Below are positions 2,250 through 35,694 of a stretch of DNA of 35,694 bases, one piece after another. The notes below the pieces were generated by a model. That model did not search any database. It saw only the letters and a program-made list of their open reading frames with translations, and was not told where the DNA came from. Each line of letters starts with the position of its first letter. The stretch's first letter is position 1. The position numbers and the translations under genes were made by a program. Where the stretch lies: positions 1-35,694 of IMG/VR virus record IMGVR_UViG_3300017714_000053. One strand, given 5' to 3'. Origin of the DNA: a virus.

Positions 2250-2384
2250 ATGAATAACAAAAAAGATAAAGACCTATACAAGGGCGGAGATGCTGTCCTT
2301 TTTTCCTCAATCGTTGTAGCCTGTTCCGCACTAGGAATCTTGGTTCTCATCACAGTTCAAATCATCATCAACCAATTCAACTAA
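2250..2384 (+). CDS. Small single-span membrane protein, 44 aa
   Basis: A short ORF: charged N-terminus (NNKKDKDLYK) followed by one hydrophobic segment, about residues 15-40 (VLFSSIVVACSALG, then ILVLIT), ending in polar NQFN. It starts 2 nt after the previous stop, and its TAA overlaps the next ATG (TAATG at 2382-2386), a typical translationally coupled arrangement. An inner-membrane early protein (superinfection exclusion or host modification) would fit, but there is no direct evidence. Confidence 0.6.
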   Translation: MNNKKDKDLYKGGDAVLFSSIVVACSALGILVLITVQIIINQFN

Positions 2385-2929
2385 TGCCTAATCACGTAGC
2401 CAACGAACTAGTAATACGGGGAGATTCCCCGTCCATCAAAGACTTCATCCGATTTGCCCGTGGCACCGGCATACATTGGAAGGGGTCAGACAAGCCAGAG
2501 ATCGTGAACGACCTCGAGCTTTCTCACTTCGTGCACCCTGACCTTGGTCGAAGGGGCAAGGAACTCTTGATGCCTTACTCAGCCCTAGCAACGGGCGAGC
2601 CGATGGGGTATGACTGGTGCATAGAAAACTGGGGCACCAAGTGGGGTGCCTACGAGTGTGTGCTCATGGACGAAGACCACCACGGGGAGGGAGAAATCTC
2701 TTACCAATTCAACACGGCATGGGAGACGTTCAACAATCGTGTGTCGATTGCTATGTCTTCTGCCTTTCCTACTCTAAGGTTTGAGCTTACTTACTTTGAA
2801 CCCGGGATGGGATTCAAGGGAGAGAGAGTCTGGAACTACAATGATGGTCTAGTCATGAAGTGTGTCGATGATTATCGAGACGATGATGATTGCCCTTTTC
2901 AATATGAATGTTTAGTATCAGCCGGATAA
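2384..2929 (+). CDS. YubB/Api92-like ferredoxin-fold protein, 181 aa
   Basis: The opening MPNHVANELVIRG, the central ENWGTKWGAYE, the YQFNTAWETF segment and FPTLRFELTYFEPGMGFKG form the pattern of the YubB/Api92 ferredoxin-like family (DUF1281), best known from plasmid transfer regions and from phages. The molecular function is unknown; the fold and the ENWGTKW motif are the diagnostic part. The start is fixed by the TAATG overlap with the upstream membrane-protein gene. The very C-terminus is acidic (DDYRDDDD). Together with ArdC it gives this early region a plasmid-like character. Family call good, function not assigned. Confidence 0.8.
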   Translation: MPNHVANELVIRGDSPSIKDFIRFARGTGIHWKGSDKPEIVNDLELSHFVHPDLGRRGKELLMPYSALATGEPMGYDWCIENWGTKWGAYECVLMDEDHHGEGEISYQFNTAWETFNNRVSIAMSSAFPTLRFELTYFEPGMGFKGERVWNYNDGLVMKCVDDYRDDDDCPFQYECLVSAG

Positions 2930-3269: not shown

Positions 3270-3316
3270 TTAGTTGTGGTTGATTGGTGTTGACACAAAC
3301 GGATGAGTCATGCTTC

Positions 3317-4084
3317 ATGGGAGGCATGGCTCATTTTTATGATTGCAAGCAAGACCCCTTTCTTTGCCTCGATGTGACCACACCGGCACAAGCACGGAAG
3401 CAAAGCAAAGTTTACCCATCCGTTACCACCATCCTTGGACTGATCAAAGACCCCTTCCTTGATTCTATATACCGCCCTCGAATGATTACTGACCTCGCCC
3501 GACAGTATCCGGAGTTGCCTTGGCAAGAGCTAGAGAAGCTATGCTATGGCACCCGGGAGCACCCGGTAACCGGGGACACAATGTATTCAAGTGACTTCGG
3601 CACCGCCGTTCACAAGGAGATAGAGGATCAGCTTCAGCACATTCACCTCAGCCCGGGACAGGAGCCAAGAGTTGAGACAGCATGGAGTGACCATGCCACC
3701 GCCTTCATTGACTGGGTTGCCGACGAGTCAGTCACACCCCTAGCTACTGAGCACTTAGTTAAATGCAACCGGGTGAAGACCGCCGGGTCGATTGACTTCA
3801 TTGGCAAGGATCAGAATGACTTGGTATTCTTAGCTGACTACAAGTGCCGGACTAATACTAAGGGTAAGGCTAAGACCTACCCGAAGGACTGCTACCAGTT
3901 AGCTATTGAGGCGGACATCATCCGCCGGCACCACAAGTTGGACTACCTGCCTGCCTGCATAAGTGTAGTGGTTGACAGCGATACGTGCGAGCACTACCAC
4001 AAGGAGTGGACAAGGGACGAATGCAAAACCGGGATACAAATTTTTAAGAATGCATCCAAACTTTATTGGCTGACCCGAATGTAA
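3317..4084 (+). CDS. PD-(D/E)XK nuclease (Cas4/RecB-exonuclease-like)
   Basis: The core reads PSVTTILGLI near the N-terminus, FGTAVHKEIE, then GSIDFIG and LADYKCR about 15 residues apart, followed by YPKDCYQLA. This is the H, D, (D/E)xK and Q/Y motif order of the RecB/Cas4-type PD-(D/E)XK nucleases that phages use as exonucleases in recombination or DNA processing. With the ERF annealing protein at 5418 it could form an exonuclease/annealer pair like lambda Exo/Beta. The catalytic acid before K is D-Y-K. Frame is open upstream to a TTG at 3284, but the ATG at 3317 or 3326 is more plausible; the one at 3326 has GGAGGC too close in front of it to be a useful ribosome site. Start uncertain by 3 to 14 residues. 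Confidence 0.78.
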   Translation: MGGMAHFYDCKQDPFLCLDVTTPAQARKQSKVYPSVTTILGLIKDPFLDSIYRPRMITDLARQYPELPWQELEKLCYGTREHPVTGDTMYSSDFGTAVHKEIEDQLQHIHLSPGQEPRVETAWSDHATAFIDWVADESVTPLATEHLVKCNRVKTAGSIDFIGKDQNDLVFLADYKCRTNTKGKAKTYPKDCYQLAIEADIIRRHHKLDYLPACISVVVDSDTCEHYHKEWTRDECKTGIQIFKNASKLYWLTRM

Positions 4085-4087
4085 TTT

Positions 4088-4336
4088 ATGATAGCACCAA
4101 ACGAAAGTATAAACGAAGAACCGATCCGCTTAGACGGGTTGGATAATTGTATAATCGGAACAGATGTCCGGGGATACTTGATCTATGATTACGGCAAACT
4201 GCTTAATCATTTTGTATTAGAAGGCATGGACGAAGGTGAAGCTATGGAGTGGGTTGACTACAACATCATGGGGATTCAACCGCAGAATTTTATTATTCTG
4301 TTTGATGACTTTGACCTAGAAGTAACCATTGAATGA
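4088..4336 (+). CDS. Hypothetical acidic small protein, 82 aa
   Basis: Acidic protein with the pattern NCIIGTDVRGYLIYDYGKL ... GEAMEWVDYN, ending in FIILFDDFDLEV. Small proteins of this layout are common in phage replication modules, near nucleases and helicases, but have no known function to my knowledge. It starts 4 nt after the nuclease gene and ends in TGA 1 nt before the likely ATG of the next gene, so it is part of a tight operon. Confidence 0.65.
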   Translation: MIAPNESINEEPIRLDGLDNCIIGTDVRGYLIYDYGKLLNHFVLEGMDEGEAMEWVDYNIMGIQPQNFIILFDDFDLEVTIE

Positions 4337-4337
4337 T

Positions 4338-4772
4338 ATGAATAATACCGCACAAGATACATACGAAAACAGATGCAAGGGCAGGGTAGGAGAGGACGTG
4401 TTCGAGGACTACTGCACTCGAAAGGGAGTTCAGTTCTACCGGACTGGCTTCGACGAGAAGCAGGATCAGATACAAAAGTTCTGGATGATTCATCCTACGA
4501 TGAGGCACATCCCGGACTACCTTATTGAGAACGACAAGGGACAGTTGAGTTGGATACACGTCAAGGGAACACCTCGACTTAAGCTCATTGACTTATTCAT
4601 TTACTCTCAGTTCGAGCAACAGTTCAAGGGTGAGTGCGGATTTTTCTTAGCCTTTTGTTTCAAGGGACAAGACCCTCACTTCCTTACGTTCCCGGCACTA
4701 CAGAAGAAGCTGACTGGGCTAACTGTTCAAGAGTGGGACGATGGCAAACAGTATCTTCACCTGCCCTTGTGA
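4338..4772 (+). CDS. Restriction-endonuclease-fold-like protein, 144 aa
   Basis: Contains KGRVGEDVFEDYCTRKG, then IPDYLIENDKGQLSWIHVKG and LIDLFIYSQFEQ. This resembles the small PD-(D/E)XK / VRR-NUC-like phage proteins, with D of PDY and K of HVKG in the expected places. The residue that should be the second acid before the lysine is histidine (I-H-V-K), so catalysis is doubtful, or the acid may come from elsewhere. An in-frame TTG at 4329 is possible, but the ATG at 4338 sits 1 nt after the previous TGA and is preferred. Likely role in DNA processing with its neighbours; an alternative is a non-catalytic DNA-binding protein. Confidence 0.65.
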   Translation: MNNTAQDTYENRCKGRVGEDVFEDYCTRKGVQFYRTGFDEKQDQIQKFWMIHPTMRHIPDYLIENDKGQLSWIHVKGTPRLKLIDLFIYSQFEQQFKGECGFFLAFCFKGQDPHFLTFPALQKKLTGLTVQEWDDGKQYLHLPL

Positions 4773-4969
4773 ACCTATACAAGATAAAGTATAAGCACCG
4801 GGATATGCCGGAGGACTACGTTGGTTACACGGAGAAGTGGGCACACGATCAGAAACAAGCGGTCGGATACTTGTGCAAAGGTAGACCGGACAAGCAAGGT
4901 AACTGCACCACCAAGAAGAATGCTACCCTTACCATCTTGTCCATAGAAGAAATTACCCCATCATCCTAA
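4769..4969 (+). CDS. Hypothetical small basic protein, 66 aa, GTG start
   Basis: The open frame extends far into the previous gene, but the best start is the GTG at 4769, overlapping the preceding TGA (GTGA), a usual translational-coupling arrangement. The protein is basic, with PEDYVGYTEKW and two cysteines (YLCKGRPDKQGNCTT). No family recognised. Its TAA overlaps the next ATG (TAATG at 4967-4971). The position between two nuclease-like genes suggests involvement in DNA processing, without sequence proof. Confidence 0.55.
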   Translation: MNLYKIKYKHRDMPEDYVGYTEKWAHDQKQAVGYLCKGRPDKQGNCTTKKNATLTILSIEEITPSS

Positions 4970-5433
4970 TGACCTACGTTCCCCAAAACAAGTTAGCCCA
5001 ATGGCGAAAGGATAATTCCACGGGCAGGTGCCCCATCCTTGACCGGGTGACTGACGACTTAGTAGTTGACCACGATCATCTCAACGGAGAGATCAGGGCG
5101 GTGATCAGCCGGGAAGCTAACACCATGCTTGGAAAGATTGAAAACATTCACCGAAGTATTTGCAAGGGGGATCCAAAAGATTTACCGCAGGTGTTGTTGA
5201 ACATAGCTGAGTATCTCAAGGCACCGGCATCCGGGATACTTCATCCGGTTGGTATCAAACAATTAACCTCTAGGTTCAAGCGGAACCTTAACAAGGAGGA
5301 ACAAGAATTTGCACTACAAAAAATGGGTGCGAAAAAAAGTGAAATAAAATGTTGCAAGAATGTGAATGATCGATCAGTCTTGTATCGAACCTTAGTTAAA
5401 ACCATATACACTAAATCATGTCAGAAGAAATAA
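4969..5433 (+). CDS. Endonuclease VII-like HNH protein, 154 aa
   Basis: Near the N-terminus: GRCPIL, then VVDHDHLNGEIRAVI and N51 followed by LG (C21, DHDH at 34-37), the order of the recombination endonuclease VII domain (T4 gp49 family), which cleaves Holliday junctions and branched DNA. Here the zinc cysteines are mostly gone: the partner of C21 is leucine, and the usual 'LCxxCN' is ISREAN, while the catalytic DHDH and the Asn are kept. The structure must be held without the normal CxxC/CxxC zinc site. C-terminus is basic. It overlaps the annealing-protein gene by 16 nt. Good family call; activity inferred. Confidence 0.82.
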   Translation: MTYVPQNKLAQWRKDNSTGRCPILDRVTDDLVVDHDHLNGEIRAVISREANTMLGKIENIHRSICKGDPKDLPQVLLNIAEYLKAPASGILHPVGIKQLTSRFKRNLNKEEQEFALQKMGAKKSEIKCCKNVNDRSVLYRTLVKTIYTKSCQKK

Positions 5434-5885
5434 CTAAACCTAACCTTCGGGTTAAACTATCAGCGATTCAAGGATCGCTTAAAGCCCCCAAGGGGCAGAC
5501 AAATAAGTTCGGTGGATACAACTACCGATCAGCAGAGGACATCTTAAATTCAGTCAAGCCTTTGCTTGGCGAGTGGGGATGCTCTCTTGTAGTAAGCGAT
5601 GAGATTGTAGAAGTAGCCGGACGTATCTACGTTCGTGCTTCGGCAACCCTAGCTGACAACGAATCCGATCAGGCTATAGCTTCGAGTGCATTCGCACGTG
5701 AGGCTGAGTCCAAGAAAGGAATGGACGAGGCACAGATCACCGGGTCAGCATCAAGCTATGCCCGGAAGTATGCTCTCAACGGATTGTTCGCTATCGATGA
5801 TACGAAGGATCCGGATGCCCTGAACACACATGGCACATCAAACAAACCAAAAACAAAAACCAATAGCTTAGAGGAGCTAATATAA
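5418..5885 (+). CDS. erf: ERF-family ssDNA annealing protein
   Basis: The pattern of the ERF superfamily is clear: LSAIQGSLKAPKGQTNKFGGYNYRS is split here as LSAIQGSLKAPKGQ and FGGYNYRSAEDIL, then VKPLLGEWGCSL, an alternating strand region, and GSASSYARKYALNGLFAIDD. These recombinases anneal complementary single strands and act in recombination-dependent replication and repair, typically with a partner exonuclease; the PD-(D/E)XK gene at 3317 is the candidate. At 155 aa it is a short member with a disordered, lysine-rich tail. Start ATG lies 16 nt inside the endonuclease VII gene; TAA overlaps the next ATG (TATAATGG). Confidence 0.88.
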   Translation: MSEEITKPNLRVKLSAIQGSLKAPKGQTNKFGGYNYRSAEDILNSVKPLLGEWGCSLVVSDEIVEVAGRIYVRASATLADNESDQAIASSAFAREAESKKGMDEAQITGSASSYARKYALNGLFAIDDTKDPDALNTHGTSNKPKTKTNSLEELI

Positions 5886-6118
5886 TGGAAAAGAAATACG
5901 ATAACACTAACGGCGGAGCACTGTTCCCCAATGACCGCAAGGAAAAAGACACTCACCCTGATCTACGTGGATCAATTAACGTGGGTGGTGTTGACTACTG
6001 GATCAAGGCATGGAAGAAAGATGCCAAGTCCGGTGTCAAATTCCTATCACTAGCTGTCAATCCAAAGGATGAGGCAGTAGCGAACAGCAGTCCAGCCGTT
6101 AACTCAGACCCATTTTAA
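5885..6118 (+). CDS. DUF736-like small protein, 77 aa
   Basis: The sequence YDNTNGGALFPNDRKEKDTHPD, then GSINVGGVDYWIKAWKK and KFLSLAV is the pattern of the short phage/plasmid proteins related to DUF736, small beta-rich proteins that may bind nucleic acid like an OB-fold. Coupled to the ERF gene (TAATG), so it may serve as its single-strand-binding partner; this is inferred from position. The tail is low complexity (SSPAVNSDPF), resembling the acidic/phenylalanine tip of SSB proteins. Tandem TAA TAA stop. Confidence 0.7.
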   Translation: MEKKYDNTNGGALFPNDRKEKDTHPDLRGSINVGGVDYWIKAWKKDAKSGVKFLSLAVNPKDEAVANSSPAVNSDPF

Positions 6119-6526: not shown

Positions 6527-6721
6527 ATGAAACACAAAACAACTATGCAAATATTGGAAGCCATACACGATGCAGTTCAACTTGGAAACAAGTTACATAA
6601 AGAGATTGACACACAAAAAATACCTAAAAAAGAGCAAGAGAATATTAAGTATTTGGGTCAATGCCTGCGGTCTATGGACTTCATCTTAAGCGATGAACGA
6701 AATAGAAACTCTACCACATAA
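6527..6721 (+). CDS. Hypothetical small protein, 64 aa
   Basis: A lysine-rich helical protein without recognisable family. The frame opens at a GTG (6500) that is inside the upstream hairpin, so the ATG at 6527, after ATTTATTTATCAAC, is the likely start. It overlaps the DnaB start by 29 nt in a different frame, which couples it to the helicase. Such small helical proteins next to DnaB can be helicase loaders or modulators, but nothing in the sequence proves this. Confidence 0.6.
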   Translation: MKHKTTMQILEAIHDAVQLGNKLHKEIDTQKIPKKEQENIKYLGQCLRSMDFILSDERNRNSTT

Positions 6722-8021
6722 TGCAGAAGCAGAGGAAGCTGTCATAGCTTGCTGTCTTCTTGATGACTCCCCGGCTAACTACAATTCTGTTACAGAATTA
6801 GTAAGTGCCGATGACTTCTACATCCACAGGAACCAATGTATCTTTGGTGCCCTCGGTAAGCTAGCTGATGCTAGCCTGCCGGTGGATGAGATACATCTGT
6901 CCGAACAACTAACCCGTGATGATAACCTTGATGCCGTAGGTGGAGTAACTTCCATCTACAGTATCATGGATCGGGTTGAGACTTCTATGCAGATGCATCA
7001 CTATGCAAAGATAGTTAAGGAGAAGTCCAACCTACGTAAGATGAACCGGGCATACCGGGTCGCAACCGAAAGCATAATGACTCAGTCGGATTCAGCTGAG
7101 AACATTAAGCACACGGTTGACTCAGAGGTTAACCGGATTCACTTCACTCAAGAGAAGCCCAATGATTTAAGCTCAACCGCTGAGGAGATTAAGGACGAGT
7201 TCCGCAAGATGCTAGCCGGAGAGTTTGTTACGGATGCATTGCCTACTCACATCGGTAAACTCGATCAGCAGTTAGGTAACCGGGGCATAGCACCGGGTGA
7301 GGTGATCACCCTCGCGGCACCGACATCATGCGGTAAGTCAGCCTTGGCTCTTAACATAGCCCTCAAGTCAGTCACTCACAACAATGCACCCTGTGCTGTA
7401 TTCTCCTTGGAGATGCCACAGAAGCAGTTGTTTAAACGAATGGCTCAGACCCTAGCCGGTGTGAACATCAAGCAGATAAGTGACGGGGTTATATCAGAGG
7501 AGAATATGAAGAAGGTTGATGAAGCCATTGATCAACTTCACTCCGTTCCGTTATACACCAGTCACAACGTCAAGTCAGCAGAGGATCTAGCATCTCAACT
7601 ACGTAAGCTAGTGGACAAGCAAGGTGTAAAGCTCGCCGTGATTGATTACCTTCAACTCATCCCGTTTAATTCCGGGAAGGTTGGCAAGGCGGAAGGCATT
7701 GCAAACATCTCTCATAAGATTAAGCAACTAGCCCTTGAGTTAAACATCGGTATCCTGCTGTTGGCACAAGTCAATCGTGAGGGTGCCAAGAGGGAGGGAG
7801 GCTTGGACATCTATGATCTAAAGGACTCAGGAGATATTGAGAATGATGCGGACGTTGTCCTTCTCATGTATCCACAACAGGGTAACTTCGAGGACTCAAA
7901 GATGTCTGACTCGAATGGACCATACACTAACCTTGAGTATAAGATAGCTAAGAATCGTGAAGGCGAACGAGGCACCATCGGATACTTTAAATTCTACCAC
8001 ATAACAGGAAGATTCTACTAA
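6693..8021 (+). CDS. dnaB: Replicative DNA helicase, DnaB type, 442 aa
   Basis: Residues 1-105 form the DnaB N-terminal domain (LPHNAEAEEAVIACCL ... HHYAKIV). The C-terminal RecA-like domain starts near residue 180 with IGKLDQQLGNRGIAPGE, Walker A APTSCGKS (209-216), the SLEMPQKQL motif, Walker B VIDYLQLI (316-323), LAQVNREG and the KDSGDIENDADVV motif ending in the arginine-finger segment AKNREGERG. It unwinds DNA at the fork as a hexamer. There is no primase domain and no phage polymerase in view, so host primase and polymerase must be recruited. Followed by a DnaA domain IV-like gene with overlapping TAATG. Confidence 0.95.
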   Translation: MNEIETLPHNAEAEEAVIACCLLDDSPANYNSVTELVSADDFYIHRNQCIFGALGKLADASLPVDEIHLSEQLTRDDNLDAVGGVTSIYSIMDRVETSMQMHHYAKIVKEKSNLRKMNRAYRVATESIMTQSDSAENIKHTVDSEVNRIHFTQEKPNDLSSTAEEIKDEFRKMLAGEFVTDALPTHIGKLDQQLGNRGIAPGEVITLAAPTSCGKSALALNIALKSVTHNNAPCAVFSLEMPQKQLFKRMAQTLAGVNIKQISDGVISEENMKKVDEAIDQLHSVPLYTSHNVKSAEDLASQLRKLVDKQGVKLAVIDYLQLIPFNSGKVGKAEGIANISHKIKQLALELNIGILLLAQVNREGAKREGGLDIYDLKDSGDIENDADVVLLMYPQQGNFEDSKMSDSNGPYTNLEYKIAKNREGERGTIGYFKFYHITGRFY

Positions 8022-8338
8022 TGAATAATAAATATAAAATACTTGAAGCAGTAAGCAACTCATGTGAGGTGCCAGTAAAAATAATATCAGGCACCCGTCG
8101 AACAAAGAAGGCATCCTATGCCCGGGACATCTGTTCGTTCCTCATGCACAAGTGCGGATACTCACACGAAAACATCAGCCGGATACTTAACCGGGAAAGA
8201 ACATCGGTAACTCACGGCATCAAACGTGTAAGCAAACGTATCCAAGAGGACAGCAATCGTGGACGATTCATGAGGGTTCACATCCGGGATATACTTGACA
8301 ACTCACTCAAGATGAACTATATAAATATAGATGAATGA
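8021..8338 (+). CDS. Stand-alone DnaA domain IV-like DNA-binding protein
   Basis: Residues 12-70 match the C-terminal DNA-binding domain of DnaA: a CEVPVKIISGTRR opening, KASYARDICSFLMHKCGYSHENI, then NRERTSVTHGIKRV, which corresponds to the DnaA signature helix-turn-helix that reads the DnaA box. The AAA+ domain is absent and total length is 105 aa. It sits immediately after the DnaB gene (TAATG). The simplest reading is an origin-binding protein that brings DnaB to phage DNA; the iterons at 35218-35273 are the best candidate sites. An alternative is a transcription regulator that binds, or blocks host DnaA from, the same boxes. Confidence 0.8.
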   Translation: MNNKYKILEAVSNSCEVPVKIISGTRRTKKASYARDICSFLMHKCGYSHENISRILNRERTSVTHGIKRVSKRIQEDSNRGRFMRVHIRDILDNSLKMNYINIDE

Positions 8339-31583: not shown

Positions 31584-33242
31584 TTAATATCCTCCTGTTG
31601 TTTTTTGTGTTACCTTCATGTCTTTGTTGGTAACGTGGTCCGGACCTTCGCCTCGGTTAGCCATACGTAGATAACGAATCACGTCAAAGAAATCCTTTAG
31701 TGGTTCGTCAGCTTTTCCGTTAGCATTGTAGTTAATTAAACTGTCAATCAAGTTGCCGCATCGTTCGTGAATGTAGCAACGAGGTTTATTCATTTCATCG
31801 ATGCTAGCATTGGGATTATAACTGAACCAATCATCCAGTGCACTGATACCCATGTCCTGTGTCCTGCCATCTGATGGGACAAAGACTAAGCCATGATCGT
31901 AAAATGTAGTAAACAAGTCGTCATTATTCTCGTTTTCCCGGGCAAAATAACGTGAATCTCCTATCCTTTCAAAGACTTCTACCCCGTGTGATTCCTCTAT
32001 TCCTAGGAATAAATCGGTGTATCCTTGCACATCGTAGCCTATTTTCTTTGATGCTGGTCCACGTTTCCACTTTGGATCCCCGAACATTGCCCACTCTCCG
32101 TATGCATCCCGGTCCGGGAACTCATCGAAGATGTATATCTCCCCGGCTTCGTTAACTGCCGCCCAGATAGCTACACTGTTCCGGGCACCTGCCGGATCCA
32201 TTACCATGTAAATCGTGTAGTCATCGTCATTGATGTCCGGGAACTTCATTCCGTATTTGTTTGGAATGTCGCCAAGAACATTTACCTCAGTCGAGAACAG
32301 GGGTAGCAGTGATGTCATTGACTTCACCGGTACACCGTAAGCACGAACTAGGATCTCTTCGTCCGGGCGACCCTTGAGATCTTTGCTTAGACGTTTGTAA
32401 CCCCCGAATGGATTCTCATCTGAGTGCAGGTAAACGATGCCGGCATCCCGGTTGGGACTATACTGCCGGATTGGTAGCTGGCGGTTCTTCAATAGACTCG
32501 CCTCACGAGTCTCTAATGTTTCCGCATTGGTGCAATACTCGCTAATGAAAGGTGTAAACCCATCAATAGGGGTAAACCCCAGTATCATCTTTGAATTAAA
32601 TGTAGCTAAACGGAAACGAAGTGTGTTAACCAAAGCCGCATCACCAAGGTATTCATCAAGCCATGCCCCCATGTTTAGGTTGTCTGGCTTAGAAGGGAAC
32701 CCGAATTGCATACCCTCTAGGATGGTTTGGTTATTTGAGAACTGTGTGTAAGTCTTGAAGTCAACCCGGGTCCGGGTATCCGGAAAGATAAACGAGCTTC
32801 CGGTGAATCCATTTTGCATAGAGAAGTTAATGTATCCCTCCGTGCTCTTGGTCTTCTTCCGGAACTCCTTGGGCATCATCTCCCACATGGCGGCTTGCTG
32901 AACCTTGACAGAGGTATCCGCATTCTGTGAGAAACAAACTATGTGACCGTTCATGTTCTCCATGACAGCCTGCATAATTATCTTTGCACACCCTGTAGTC
33001 TTTCCGGATCTGTTACCCCCTAATGTGAGGACCTCGTTGTATTCCTTTAGTCCGTTCCGGATCCTGCCCCAGCCATCTAAGTCAAAGCCGTAGCGAACCG
33101 GATCGTTCGTGGCGGCTTCGATCCTACCCTCGTGAGCACGGTGTAGATCCTCGAGTAGCTTAGGATCTTTCTTTGCTAAGAGTAGAATCTCTTCGTCACT
33201 AGGGGCATCTAGTATCGGGTGCGGTGTAAATTCAATGGGCAT
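31584..33242 (-). CDS. terL: Terminase large subunit, 552 aa
   Basis: Walker A GGNRSGKT (75-82) in the ATPase domain, followed by VCFSQNADTSVKVQQA and NMGAWLDEYL as the likely Walker B region. The nuclease domain begins at VMDPAGARNSVAIW with the first catalytic Asp, continues with YDVQGYTDLFLGIEE, and ends with DFFDVIRYLRMA. The two-domain layout of a packaging motor is complete. It moves DNA into the prohead and cuts the concatemer. Next to the oxygenase-like gene and the TerS gene. Confidence 0.95.
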   Translation of the reverse strand: MPIEFTPHPILDAPSDEEILLLAKKDPKLLEDLHRAHEGRIEAATNDPVRYGFDLDGWGRIRNGLKEYNEVLTLGGNRSGKTTGCAKIIMQAVMENMNGHIVCFSQNADTSVKVQQAAMWEMMPKEFRKKTKSTEGYINFSMQNGFTGSSFIFPDTRTRVDFKTYTQFSNNQTILEGMQFGFPSKPDNLNMGAWLDEYLGDAALVNTLRFRLATFNSKMILGFTPIDGFTPFISEYCTNAETLETREASLLKNRQLPIRQYSPNRDAGIVYLHSDENPFGGYKRLSKDLKGRPDEEILVRAYGVPVKSMTSLLPLFSTEVNVLGDIPNKYGMKFPDINDDDYTIYMVMDPAGARNSVAIWAAVNEAGEIYIFDEFPDRDAYGEWAMFGDPKWKRGPASKKIGYDVQGYTDLFLGIEESHGVEVFERIGDSRYFARENENNDDLFTTFYDHGLVFVPSDGRTQDMGISALDDWFSYNPNASIDEMNKPRCYIHERCGNLIDSLINYNANGKADEPLKDFFDVIRYLRMANRGEGPDHVTNKDMKVTQKTTGGY

Positions 33243-33245
33243 TGA

Positions 33246-33860
33246 TTAAAAATAAATAACAACCTTGTTGCTTAGGCTTAGTATAGCTCCGTGCCCTTGA
33301 AGTGTAATCCTTGGATTTTCGTCAGTTGGTTCACCGACACCAGCTATACGGTGAAGAATGTGACCGAAGTGCGAATACATATGTCCCGGCTTGTAGTCAA
33401 CGTATTGGGGTTGGTCTGTGTCATTGTCTAACCATACATCTAATCCTGCTTTGCCCGGAATGTTAATAGCTAATGTAAATGAAAATGGGGATTCAAATGG
33501 TTCGGACCAGTATATTCTCCGGTAGGGTTTGTCCTCGTGAGTGTGTCCCTGCTTCCCGGCGGAATCCTTTCCAAAGATATGAAACCCCGGTAGTGCCCCG
33601 TAGGGGTGAAACTCAACGGGTAGACCCATGAGTTCTGAGATCTGATTTATTAATATCTTATATAGCTTACCAAAGTTAGTTTGCAATACTGGGTTCATCT
33701 TATCGGCTAGTCCCGCATATTCCAACAGGTCGTCTAAATATACTGATGCACCAAGTGTATTAAAGAATCCTCGCTTGGTGAATGAATCGCTTAATGAAAG
33801 CACGGTGTCCGACACTTCCTTAGCCTCTGTCTCCGTTAGTATTTGGTTGTCGTATATCAT
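33246..33860 (-). CDS. 2OG-Fe(II) oxygenase-like double-stranded beta-helix protein, 204 aa
   Basis: The C-terminal half carries the motif order of 2-oxoglutarate/iron oxygenases: HED at 108-110 (HxD) in GHTHEDKPYRRIYW, then beta strands FSFTLAINIPGKAGLDVWLD, YKPGHMYSHFGHILHRI with H170, and R184 in NPRITLQGHGAIL. H170 to R184 is 14 residues, a usual spacing. The N-terminal half is helical. It lies inside the packaging module between the interrupted small gene and TerL. Such proteins in phages may hydroxylate host or phage proteins or nucleic acid; substrate unknown. Related iron-free cupin folds are possible. Confidence 0.65.
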   Translation of the reverse strand: MIYDNQILTETEAKEVSDTVLSLSDSFTKRGFFNTLGASVYLDDLLEYAGLADKMNPVLQTNFGKLYKILINQISELMGLPVEFHPYGALPGFHIFGKDSAGKQGHTHEDKPYRRIYWSEPFESPFSFTLAINIPGKAGLDVWLDNDTDQPQYVDYKPGHMYSHFGHILHRIAGVGEPTDENPRITLQGHGAILSLSNKVVIYF

Positions 33861-33861
33861 A

Positions 33862-34092
33862 TCAAGTATCCTCGTCTTCGTCTTCCTCTACCCACTCAAA
33901 GTCAAAGTCATCTACATCTAGTTCGTCCCGGACTTCTCTCATTAGCATCTTGCCTATTGGCAAGTTAGTGAAGTCATAATACTAGTCCCCTTCATCATTC
34001 ATTACTATGAACATATAGTTCGGGAAGTGCTCGGATAAGATAGCCCGAACCTTCTCGTGTATATCCTCATGGTATTCGGAGTTAATCGACAT
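33862..34092 (-). pseudogene. Small acidic gene interrupted by an in-frame TAG
   Basis: A 77-codon frame. Codons 1-36 give MSINSEYHEDIHEKVRAILS, EHFPNYMFIVMNDEGD; codon 37 is TAG (33984-33982); codons 38-76 continue without a stop as YYDFTNLPIGKMLMREVRDE and an acidic tail, ending in TGA. Both halves look like one protein ('NYxFxVMxxxGDxYYDFTN' is a plausible single strand-turn). Start overlaps TerS by 11 nt, and TGA is 1 nt before the oxygenase ATG. TTG or TTA to TAG is a single change. Gene may be dead, suppressed or read through. Confidence 0.7.
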
Positions 34093-34624
34093 CAATCACT
34101 TCTGCTTCCTTTAGTTTCCGGATCCGGTCTTCTGCCGCCTTGGCGGTAGCTTCGTAGTCCTCTTGGGTATATACCTTCCGGTCCTCGGTGATATTGGTTG
34201 CCTCACCCCGGGCGGTCAGTGCTTCCCGTGCGGCATTAGCTTTAGCTATTGAAAGTTCTTTTAGATCCCGGAACGTAGCTTCTAGCTCCCCGGATTCAAG
34301 CCGGTCCCGGACTACCTCAATGAGGTCCTCCTCTAAGCTGGACATATCTAAGTAGTTCTTGGCGGCTATCTTTCCGGACAGTTCCCGGAACTTACCTATG
34401 TGATCTGCATAGTCCGTAAGCACTGAGATGACAGTATGTCTATCGAAGCCATACTTCCTAACTAACCGGGTCTGACTAGATCCTGTGGCATACAGGTATA
34501 GCATCTGAGCTACCCGTTCCGGAGCAAACCTACTTAGACTATTCAGCTTATCTAACTCCTTCTGTTCAGATATGTCCTGAATGGACGTGGTTATCTCCTG
34601 CATTAACTGTTCCTTCTCATCCAT
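34082..34624 (-). CDS. terS: Terminase small subunit, 180 aa
   Basis: N-terminal helix MDEKEQLMQEITTSIQDISE, then an HTH segment (FAPERVAQMLYLYATGSSQT, RLVRKYGFDRHTVISVLTDY) for DNA recognition, then an oligomerisation helix region (MSSLEEDLIEVVRDRLESGE) and an acidic C-terminus (KLKEAEVIDVD) likely to contact TerL. The frame opens at a GTG (34651), but the ATG at 34624 is preferred because the GTG lies between the -35 and -10 boxes of a promoter. It is the first gene of the leftward unit. Confidence 0.82.
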   Translation of the reverse strand: MDEKEQLMQEITTSIQDISEQKELDKLNSLSRFAPERVAQMLYLYATGSSQTRLVRKYGFDRHTVISVLTDYADHIGKFRELSGKIAAKNYLDMSSLEEDLIEVVRDRLESGELEATFRDLKELSIAKANAAREALTARGEATNITEDRKVYTQEDYEATAKAAEDRIRKLKEAEVIDVD

Positions 34625-34633
34625 CTTATTTAA

Positions 34634-34662
34634 ACTATTTCTTAGTAGCACTTACGTGTCAA
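34634..34662 (-). promoter_or_regulatory. Promoter of the leftward (late) unit
   Basis: Minus strand: TTGACA (34662-34657), 17-nt spacer, AATAGT (34639-34634; four of six matches). Predicted start about 34627, only three bases before the TerS ATG, so the mRNA would be nearly leaderless. A second candidate, TATAAT (34672-34667), lies just upstream and would give a longer leader. Confidence 0.5.
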
Positions 34663-34702
34663 GTATATTATATGATACAATACACCTGTGGTACGTAATA
34701 AA

Positions 34703-34726
34703 CCTTTCTGCCGTAGGCGAGAAAGG
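34703..34726. other. Hairpin CCTTTCT...AGAAAGG
   Basis: CCTTTCTGCC (34703-34712) pairs with GGC(G)AGAAAGG (34716-34726) with one bulged G. There is no long T-run on either side, so a terminator function is weak; it could be an operator or a transcript-end structure. Confidence 0.4.
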
Positions 34727-34834
34727 GAATGAAGATCAAGAGAACTCCTTATGTATCACCGGATTGATCAGGGCTGTCAAGTCCAAAATCCTATGAGGAG
34801 CATATTTTTTTATAGCCATGTTTATGTATCTAGA

Positions 34835-35104
34835 GAGATGTCGTCGCAAAAAGTTTTGACCCCCTCCCCCCATGTCGCCGTAATGAGACTGAGACTCAAT
34901 CGCAATAAGCACGGATCCCTAAATGAGACTGGGTCGCAAAAAGTCGGGCTGTAGTTTTAATGAGACTGGGACTCAATATCAATTAAGAATCATTCTAATG
35001 TTCCACGTGGAACAATTTATTTCTCTCATAAAGAAAGTATTACGGGGGTGAATTTGGAATGAGACTGACTCTCAATAACCCTTAATGCGACTGAATCTCA
35101 ATAG
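34835..35104 (+). repeat. Six degenerate copies of a GAGACTG-type repeat
   Basis: Copies start near 34835, 34885, 34925, 34962, 35061 and 35087. The core is (AAT)GAGACTGRGACTCAAT; copies 1 and 3 share the downstream TCGCAAAAAGT. Several have dyad symmetry (TGAG...CTCA). Distances are irregular (26 to 99 nt), so this is not a CRISPR. They flank the parS-like site. Likely protein-binding sites for replication, partition or regulation. Confidence 0.75.
34999..35014. promoter_or_regulatory. parS: parS-like centromere site
   Basis: TGTTCCACGTGGAACA is a perfect 16-bp palindrome. The Bacillus subtilis parS consensus TGTTCCACGTGAAACA differs by one base, and symmetric forms are known to bind chromosomal ParB. 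No ParB or ParA gene is recognisable in the window. It would let host ParB load on phage DNA. Another CACGTG-binding protein is possible. Confidence 0.75.
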
Positions 35105-35217
35105 TTGAGGTTTGCCCTGTATGCTCGTCTGACGGCTTCCGAAGGGTAGGGTGCCATTTGAAAATCGGACGGCTTAAAGGGGCATTTACGGCTCACTACG
35201 GGCTATACGATATTACG

Positions 35218-35273
35218 TAAGTCGTTGATAAAAGTCATAAGTCGTTGATACCAATTCTGTAAGTCGTTGATAA
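35218..35273. repeat. Three iterons, TAAGTCGTTGATA
   Basis: TAAGTCGTTGATA occurs at 35218, 35238 and 35260 (spacing 20 and 22 nt, about two helical turns, so on one DNA face). Copies 1 and 3 extend to TAAGTCGTTGATAA. The complement begins TTATCAACG, which matches seven of nine bases of the DnaA box TTATCCACA. This suggests initiator binding, with the phage DnaA-like protein as candidate. An A/T-rich stretch follows at about 35385-35415. Confidence 0.8.
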
Positions 35274-35415
35274 AATACTCAGAAAACGGGATCAACCGCC
35301 GTAATGGTTTCATTATTTTGTATGAGGTGTTCAAAATGATTGATTTCTATTCACAGGTTATTCATGTATACTACTTTCATCATCTAATTATAACCTAATA
35401 AATAACCTACTAAAT

Positions 35416-35547
35416 ATGGACATACAAATAAGATACCAAAACTACCGCCTCAATAGCCTTCGTCAGGGCATCGAACCTATGGCATTTGAGGAATGGCAAT
35501 CAGAGATACAGGGGGCAGTCAAAGCAGTGAAGACCGCACTCAAATAG
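35416..35547 (+). CDS. Tiny early protein, 43 aa
   Basis: MDIQIRYQNYRLNSLRQGIE, then PMAFEEWQSEIQGAVKAVKT and ALK, ending in TAG. ATG follows AACCTACTAAAT, the same leader type as the ArdC gene next to it. It is the first gene right of the iterons. Short helical, no known family. The similar leader to other early genes supports that it is translated. Confidence 0.5.
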   Translation: MDIQIRYQNYRLNSLRQGIEPMAFEEWQSEIQGAVKAVKTALK

Positions 35548-35590
35548 ACCCGAATTTTAACCTAATACACACACCTAACTACTACTAAAT

Positions 35591-35694
35591 ATGAGCACTA
35601 AAAAAGCAAAACTGGACCTTCACGAAACTATCACAAACCGCTTCATTGAAGCACTAAACAAGGGCACTAATCCGTGGACAAAGCCGTGGAAAAG
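35591..35694 (+). CDS. ArdC-like anti-restriction protein, N-terminus (3' truncated)
   Basis: MSTKKAKLDLHETITNRFIE then ALNKGTNPWTKPW is the N-terminal ArdC domain (DUF1738 type, which binds single-stranded DNA). The window ends within it. The C-terminal peptidase half starts at base 1. A direct join of the two ends changes frame and stops after nine codons, so some sequence is missing between them, probably the rest of the N-terminal domain. Leader CTAACTACTACTAAAT precedes the ATG. Confidence 0.85.
   Translation, partial: MSTKKAKLDLHETITNRFIEALNKGTNPWTKPWK

Follow-up and report, generated by a model that had tools for sequence, protein, structure and literature searches.

The locus described here raises the question of whether the early end of a phage genome that carries plasmid-type genes beside a centromere-type site derives from a plasmid, or functions like one. 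The window, that is, the whole stretch of DNA that was analysed, is an entire IMG/VR virus record of 35,694 bases. The initial annotation had pointed to an ArdC gene and a YubB/Api92-like gene, two families that it associated with the leading regions of conjugative plasmids, and had proposed a plasmid-derived or plasmid-like early end and an extrachromosomal, phage-plasmid lifestyle.

A control region of 0.94 kb (34652–35590) separates the early genes, which run rightward, from the terminase genes, which run leftward; it is flanked by the divergent genes for the small terminase (left) and ArdC (right), and the AT content is 70% at 35276–35416, compared to 56% for the whole window. In five relatives (L002, L003, L004, L006 and L008), 256 nt separate the sequence equivalent to the end of the window from that equivalent to its start, which shows that the genome closes to give about 35.95 kb, about 256 nt of which are absent from the window. 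The best reading of the window is that it holds the early end of a tailed marine phage of about 36 kb, of lytic type, whose genome closes or is circularly permuted. The closure bears on the claim that the two genes lie within 3 kb of parS and the iterons: in the linear record the bulk of ArdC and the Api92-like gene sit at the end opposite parS, and it is only because the genome closes that the Api92-like gene comes to about 3.3 kb from parS (34999) and about 3.1 kb from the last repeat (35271), so that the claim holds approximately, and for the closed genome alone.

The order of the early operon (+ strand) is ArdC, unknown genes, the Api92-like gene, exonuclease, endonuclease VII, an ERF annealing protein, SSB, a DnaB-like helicase and a DnaA domain-IV-like protein. 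The stretch from exonuclease to SSB (3284–6118), in which unknown genes are interspersed, was assigned from family matches, and the last two genes (6693–8338) from Pfam: the helicase gene occupies 6693–8021, and directly 3′ of it a stand-alone DnaA domain IV is encoded at 8021–8338 (PF08299, E 7.5e-12). Two 56-bp repeats that are 82% identical lie between early genes (610–665 and 1088–1143), each with an inverted repeat, GCCCCCATTCTGGGGGC, spotted by eye; these are possibly terminators or processing sites. On the other side of the control region, the first late genes (31584–34651) are those of the small terminase (34082–34651), assigned from its position only, and of the large terminase (31584–33242), which matches phrog_2 (6e-15). 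The nearest named record is that of Phage C75C1 (circular, 39,484 bp; terminase 72.5%). A megablast search of window DNA 1–25000 against phage records gave no match; for C72C1, compared by annotation alone, no relation was visible. The GC skew was considered as an origin marker, but it tracks gene orientation and is not decisive.

The ArdC gene is cut by the contig end. Its first 34 codons, recognised by alignment, are found at 35591–35694, and its 3′ part, which codes for a zincin-like metallopeptidase (MPTase-PolyVal), at 1–612, both on the + strand; the latter matches PF18818 (7.8e-38, over the cut-off) and the anti-restriction family phrog_7245 (8.6e-48). The gene is whole in the same five relatives, and in L003 (5794–6765) it codes for a protein of 323 amino acids in which ArdcN (PF08401, 2.2e-35) and MPTase-PolyVal (7e-37) are both over the cut-off. 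The family thus has the two domains of ArdC anti-restriction proteins, from which the window gene differs in being broken and in its low identity to them. Matches were found in 3,090 of 72,556 plasmid records (1,705 of which are typed conjugative) and in 57 of 50,697 phage records, so that the ArdC family is found more often in plasmids than in phages and keeps a plasmid flavour. The identity is below 60% in all matching records and, among the matches listed, at best 40.1% for plasmids and 38.4% for phages, which argues against a recent plasmid donor; at the DNA level, ArdC gave no match to plasmids. The phages that match include Caulobacter phages of the phiCbK type, Pelagibacter phages and Roseobacter phages. 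In one of the latter, CRP-804, the match lies at the very start of the record (31–876), where it is annotated as a MarR regulator. A far relative, L109, also has ArdC, towards the beginning of its early genes.

The Api92-like gene (2384–2929, + strand) is an intact open reading frame; its product, of 181 residues starting with MPNH, has a DUF1281_C ferredoxin-like domain. Its C-terminal half matches the "Api92-like" model PF18406 (E 5.4e-6; 26.7 bits for a cut-off of 22.8), which is also matched by 20 of the 22 aligned members (the window protein and 21 relatives), and the protein matches phrog_12644 (4.6e-16). The AlphaFold model is of low confidence (mean pLDDT 58.7); its best fold match in the PDB is 2ijr, Api92 of Yersinia pseudotuberculosis (Foldseek probability 1.00, E 1.1e-3), with low TM-scores (0.43/0.29), and by sequence no convincing match to a PDB entry was obtained (E 0.89 or worse). 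The likeness to Api92 therefore concerns the C-terminal ferredoxin-like domain; Api92 is longer (282 residues), and the window protein matches no other Pfam domain. The two genes named in the initial annotation are thus real, since PF18406 is over its cut-off and both ArdC domains are found in the whole gene of L003. In tblastn searches at 1e-5 the window protein had no match in plasmids or in phages. Relatives were found in viral contigs, the sole collection scanned for related loci, and one of these, L030, matches five records at 1e-4: three of phages (HMO-2011 twice, and CRP-207), where the match lies some 3.5 kb into the record, and two of non-mobilizable plasmids.

Both genes are patchily distributed. 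Among 18 longer relatives searched, several of which are fragments, one has ArdC, and the same one has PF18406; C75C1 matches neither ArdC nor Api92. In C75C1 (L041, 20149–22830), the gene closest to the control region is that of an amidoligase, with that of a gamma-glutamyl cyclotransferase a few genes further, where the window phage has ArdC, which suggests that this position is a swappable slot. Since the genes are patchy among relatives, and since ArdC recurs in L109, where the parS core was not found, ArdC and Api92 look like exchangeable accessory early cargo rather than the relic of one plasmid block. They would most likely be made first after DNA entry and protect the incoming genome, ArdC acting as a DNA-binding anti-restriction protein and Api92 as a putative small helper; plasmids may carry the same families because they face the same entry problem, and not because the phage derives from a plasmid. 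The initial annotation held that its proposal would be refuted by strictly lytic relatives that have the same genes and no latent state. This is partly the case: cultured phages do carry the ArdC or the Api92 family, and HMO-2011, phiCbK and the CRP phages are lytic, but they are not close relatives.

What had been called iterons are three tandem 13-bp repeats, (G/A)TAAGTCGTTGAT, on the + strand (35217–35271), which start at 35217, 35237 and 35259, i.e. 20 and 22 bp apart. The repeats are indeed present, and each fits the IHF consensus, WATCAANNNNTTR, on the opposite strand. The window contains seven matches to this consensus, three of which are the repeats, when 2.0 are expected, and none of 100 shuffles reaches seven. 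With at most one mismatch, the 13-mer is found upstream of the terminase in 17 of the 32 loci that have enough upstream sequence (L123, which is counted among the 32, duplicates the contig L044), and at least 120 viral stretches, as a raw count, have an 18-bp form of it. The element, GTAAGTCGTTGAT, often within a palindromic context, GTAAGTCGTTGATWATCA, appears in many unrelated viral contigs; besides those of the window, sites were noted in L086 (8614), L089 (8814), L116 (219–262) and the plasmid R7K (9167–9195), and the element seems to be conserved beyond the IHF consensus. Loose matches to a palindromic form of 31 nt occur in 212 of 50,697 records for phages and 23 of 72,556 for plasmids; at a coverage of at least 80% the numbers are 4 phage and 6 plasmid records, and the best E values are 3e-5, 1e-3 and 1e-3 in plasmids (BPP5P1, R7K and an uncultured-bacterium plasmid), against 0.2 in phages among the matches listed. 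In R7K and BPP5P1, the two plasmids that were read, the repeat is just upstream of the transfer genes, a position that is the oriT side in R388-type plasmids; the repeat may have a link to transfer regions. In print, the repeat sequence was found in one bacterial paper, as part of a primer.

Several candidates for a partner of the repeats were tried. Inspection by eye had hinted at pairs of DnaA-box-like sequences 5′ of ArdC; this idea was dropped, as the consensus TTWTNCACA is absent from the control region and occurs once in the window, where 3.6 matches are expected. The DnaA domain-IV-like protein is no general binder of the repeat, because it does not track it: DnaA_C is present in 4 of the 15 records searched, those of the near clade, and G002 has the repeat without DnaA_C. 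Nor did clustering of 1,376 open reading frames near the motif reveal a gene common to all loci (the largest cluster covers 15 loci). The absence of a co-occurring gene makes us prefer a host factor, and we read the repeats as a candidate host-factor site of the IHF type rather than as a plasmid-specific iteron. They are found in many phages and in a few plasmids. The footprint of IHF is about 35 bp, and the repeat starts are too close to each other for full IHF occupancy, so that another binder is possible.

Regarding a plasmid-like state, the initial annotation had itself noted that there is no plasmid replication or partition gene, and this is borne out: the record contains no partition ParB (TIGR00180) and no tyrosine integrase (PF00589), and the ParA, ParB, plasmid Rep and repressor families have no match among the proteins scanned with Pfam or PHROGs, which are a subset of the open reading frames. 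In the subset scanned with Pfam, no relaxase family was matched either. Phage-plasmids are expected to have replication or partition proteins of their own, and none was found among the proteins scanned, in which the DnaA domain-IV-like protein is present. An extrachromosomal form, which had been suggested as something to look for in host assemblies, was not seen in genome or plasmid collections, from which the host may be absent: an alignment scan of genome contigs gave no relative of the terminase, the portal has one relative, on an all-phage contig of a metagenome-assembled genome (MAG), and the portal has no match in plasmids.

The substantive part of the finding is a predicted host-type parS centromere site, TGTTCCACGTGGAACA, at 34999–35014, which stands as a single, free-standing, plasmid- or chromosome-like element between the divergent early and late genes. 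The pattern scan returned this one site within three mismatches of TGTTTCACGTGAAACA in the window, for 0.17 expected, and one or more such sites arose in 15 of 100 shuffles. Conservation, judged from the alignment, is stronger evidence than the scan: in eight aligned control regions, parS is the best of 269 gap-free stretches of 16 columns, with 15 invariant columns out of 16, the next best having 13. The exact 16-mer is found in 11 contigs of the near clade (the window, L002, L003, L004, L006, L008, L009, L010, L046, L050 and L053) and L047 has 15 of the 16 letters with the 14-bp core intact, so that every one of the 12 near-clade contigs spanning this position has an intact core. Among the far relatives, some of whose stretches are short, the core is intact in one of 37 (L101), which indicates that parS is not essential to the phage family. 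A 21-nt repeat (mostly AATGAGACTG...) has five of its six copies at 34888–35104, on both sides of parS.

The portal relative mentioned above is 64% identical and lies on a 10.1-kb contig, on which parS was not found, of a MAG titled uncultured Opitutae bacterium. The phage therefore probably infects Opitutae (Verrucomicrobiota), as inferred from one MAG contig, and binning errors are common. A portal search across the whole class gave matches in 9 of 384 genomes, all distant except G022; some of these distant relatives are on long contigs (G182:C1, about 3.07 Mb; G215:C4; G260:C17) and are possibly integrated prophages of the wider family. In the family of the MAG, 36 of 43 genomes match TGTTYCACGTGRAACA, every match listed reads TGTTCCACGTGGAACA, and 14 of the 43 have two copies of the site, 51 or 102 bp apart. 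The phage palindrome, NGTTNCACGTGNAACN, is thus identical to the site of the probable host group, as expected of a chromosome-type parS. In the seven loci of this family that were read, the site is always inside mnmG, and in L255 an mnmE-like frame is beside it; the vicinity of mnmE and mnmG is a known neighbourhood of chromosomal parAB. As the site is within coding mnmG, its conservation there could be due in part to protein constraint. The same 16-mer is given as parS2 and parS3 of Pseudomonas aeruginosa in PMC4368675, and Pseudomonas putida uses it too (PMC7022226), so that the letters do not identify the host.

We argue, with a preference that is slightly better than even, that this is a lytic-type phage that has accessory entry genes and a centromere by which it would borrow host ParB for positioning or partition. 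Host chromosomal ParB would most likely load at the phage parS and slide along the phage DNA, and the host ParA gradient would then position or partition the phage genome, for which the phage would need no par gene of its own. For P. aeruginosa it is reported that parAB together with one such parS site confers stability on an unstable plasmid (PMC4368675). The notion that the early end functions like a plasmid may thus be retained as far as the site is concerned, since it is conserved, of centromere type and identical in its letters to that of the probable host family, but no extrachromosomal form was seen. What counts against partition is that a single site could serve as an operator for another protein. 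The main rival is that host ParB spreads from parS and silences the flanking early and late promoters, parS being then a host-supplied repressor site involved in pseudolysogeny or in early/late tuning. The location of parS between divergent genes, the lack of a repressor family among the proteins scanned, and the silencing of nearby promoters by ParB of P. aeruginosa in test plasmids (PMC4368675) and by its relative KorB of plasmid RA3 (PMC4820964) are in line with this proposal. The plasmid-loss test of PMC4368675 was carried out with excess ParB, and a lytic-type phage is expected to lose a silencing site, whereas in this region no stretch is better conserved than parS; we consider silencing rather unlikely. 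It may also be that the palindrome is the binding site of another host or phage protein and equals parS by coincidence, as the putative ParB site is known here from its letters and 36 of the 37 far-relative stretches have no intact core; the palindrome is, however, letter for letter the mnmG site of the family of the probable host and is strictly conserved within drifting sequence, and we hold such a coincidence to be unlikely.

The least probable proposal, in our opinion a poor one, is that the phage captured its early end from a conjugative plasmid, with ArdC and Api92 as its leading region, oriT-like repeats and a centromere, and that the phage lives as a phage-plasmid. The presence of parS, the many plasmid records with ArdC and the palindromic form of the repeat, which matches plasmids better than phages, would fit such an origin. 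On the contrary, the identity of ArdC to its closest listed plasmid match is low, neither the Api92 protein nor the portal matches plasmids, the record has no ParB and no integrase, and the repeat, when matched more loosely, turns up in more records of phages than of plasmids, the 18-bp form being found in many viral stretches. In addition, ArdC and Api92 are patchy even among relatives, and L109 has ArdC but no parS core was found in it, which means that the parts do not travel as a block. The derivation from a plasmid put forward in the initial annotation is therefore not upheld.

Some known systems resemble this phage in part. Its site is the same 16-bp palindrome as that of chromosomal ParABS systems (parS2/parS3 of P. 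aeruginosa, the mnmG site in the family of the Opitutae MAG), but it is alone in a control region, and no partition ParB was found in the record. The extrachromosomal cluster A mycobacteriophages RedRock and Miko, which have parABS, are also phages with centromere sites, and RedRock is described in PMC7157519 as having no integrase gene; they encode their own parA and parB, and the parS loci of RedRock are arrays of 8-bp repeats, whereas the window phage has a single host-type site and no par gene was found.

The exact parS sequence is found in at least 120 viral stretches. A complete scan with a control palindrome, in which the central four bases are changed, gave 54 stretches, so that a good part of the viral parS matches may be due to chance. 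Their location differs: among the viral contigs returned (L274–L393), deduplicated by their flanks, 47 of 121 parS sites are outside open reading frames of at least 60 amino acids, compared to 1 of 43 control sites (Fisher p 1e-6). The 48 records that were examined, namely 46 loci whose sites are intergenic together with L044 and L004, gave no match to TIGR00180, an absence that is suggestive only, as many of these records are fragments. Some contigs have more than one site: L377 has five exact copies of TGTTCCACGTGGAACA, and in L321, L343, L371, L380 and L381 TGTTCCACGTGGAACA is paired with an adjacent TGTTTCACGTGAAACA. A literature search found no paper on host-type parS sites in phages that have no parB, which does not show that there is none.

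Last, we consider what this means for phages. The part of the finding that concerns the ArdC and Api92 genes is ordinary, and neither gene alone should be taken as the mark of a phage-plasmid. The intergenic excess of exact parS sites may point to a common phage strategy, of which the clade of the window would be one case with a matched probable host. It is possible, and we propose it tentatively, that phages without par genes commonly carry a single letter-perfect host centromere and exploit the ParB of the host, by which their genomes would be tethered, positioned or partitioned, a strategy that would have gone unrecognised. If host ParB acts on the site, the phage obtains positioning or partition at the price of 16 bases rather than that of an entire parABS operon. 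Such a parS-only phage could then persist as an episome without the homologues of plasmid genes on which, according to PMC11652158, searches for phage-plasmids are based.
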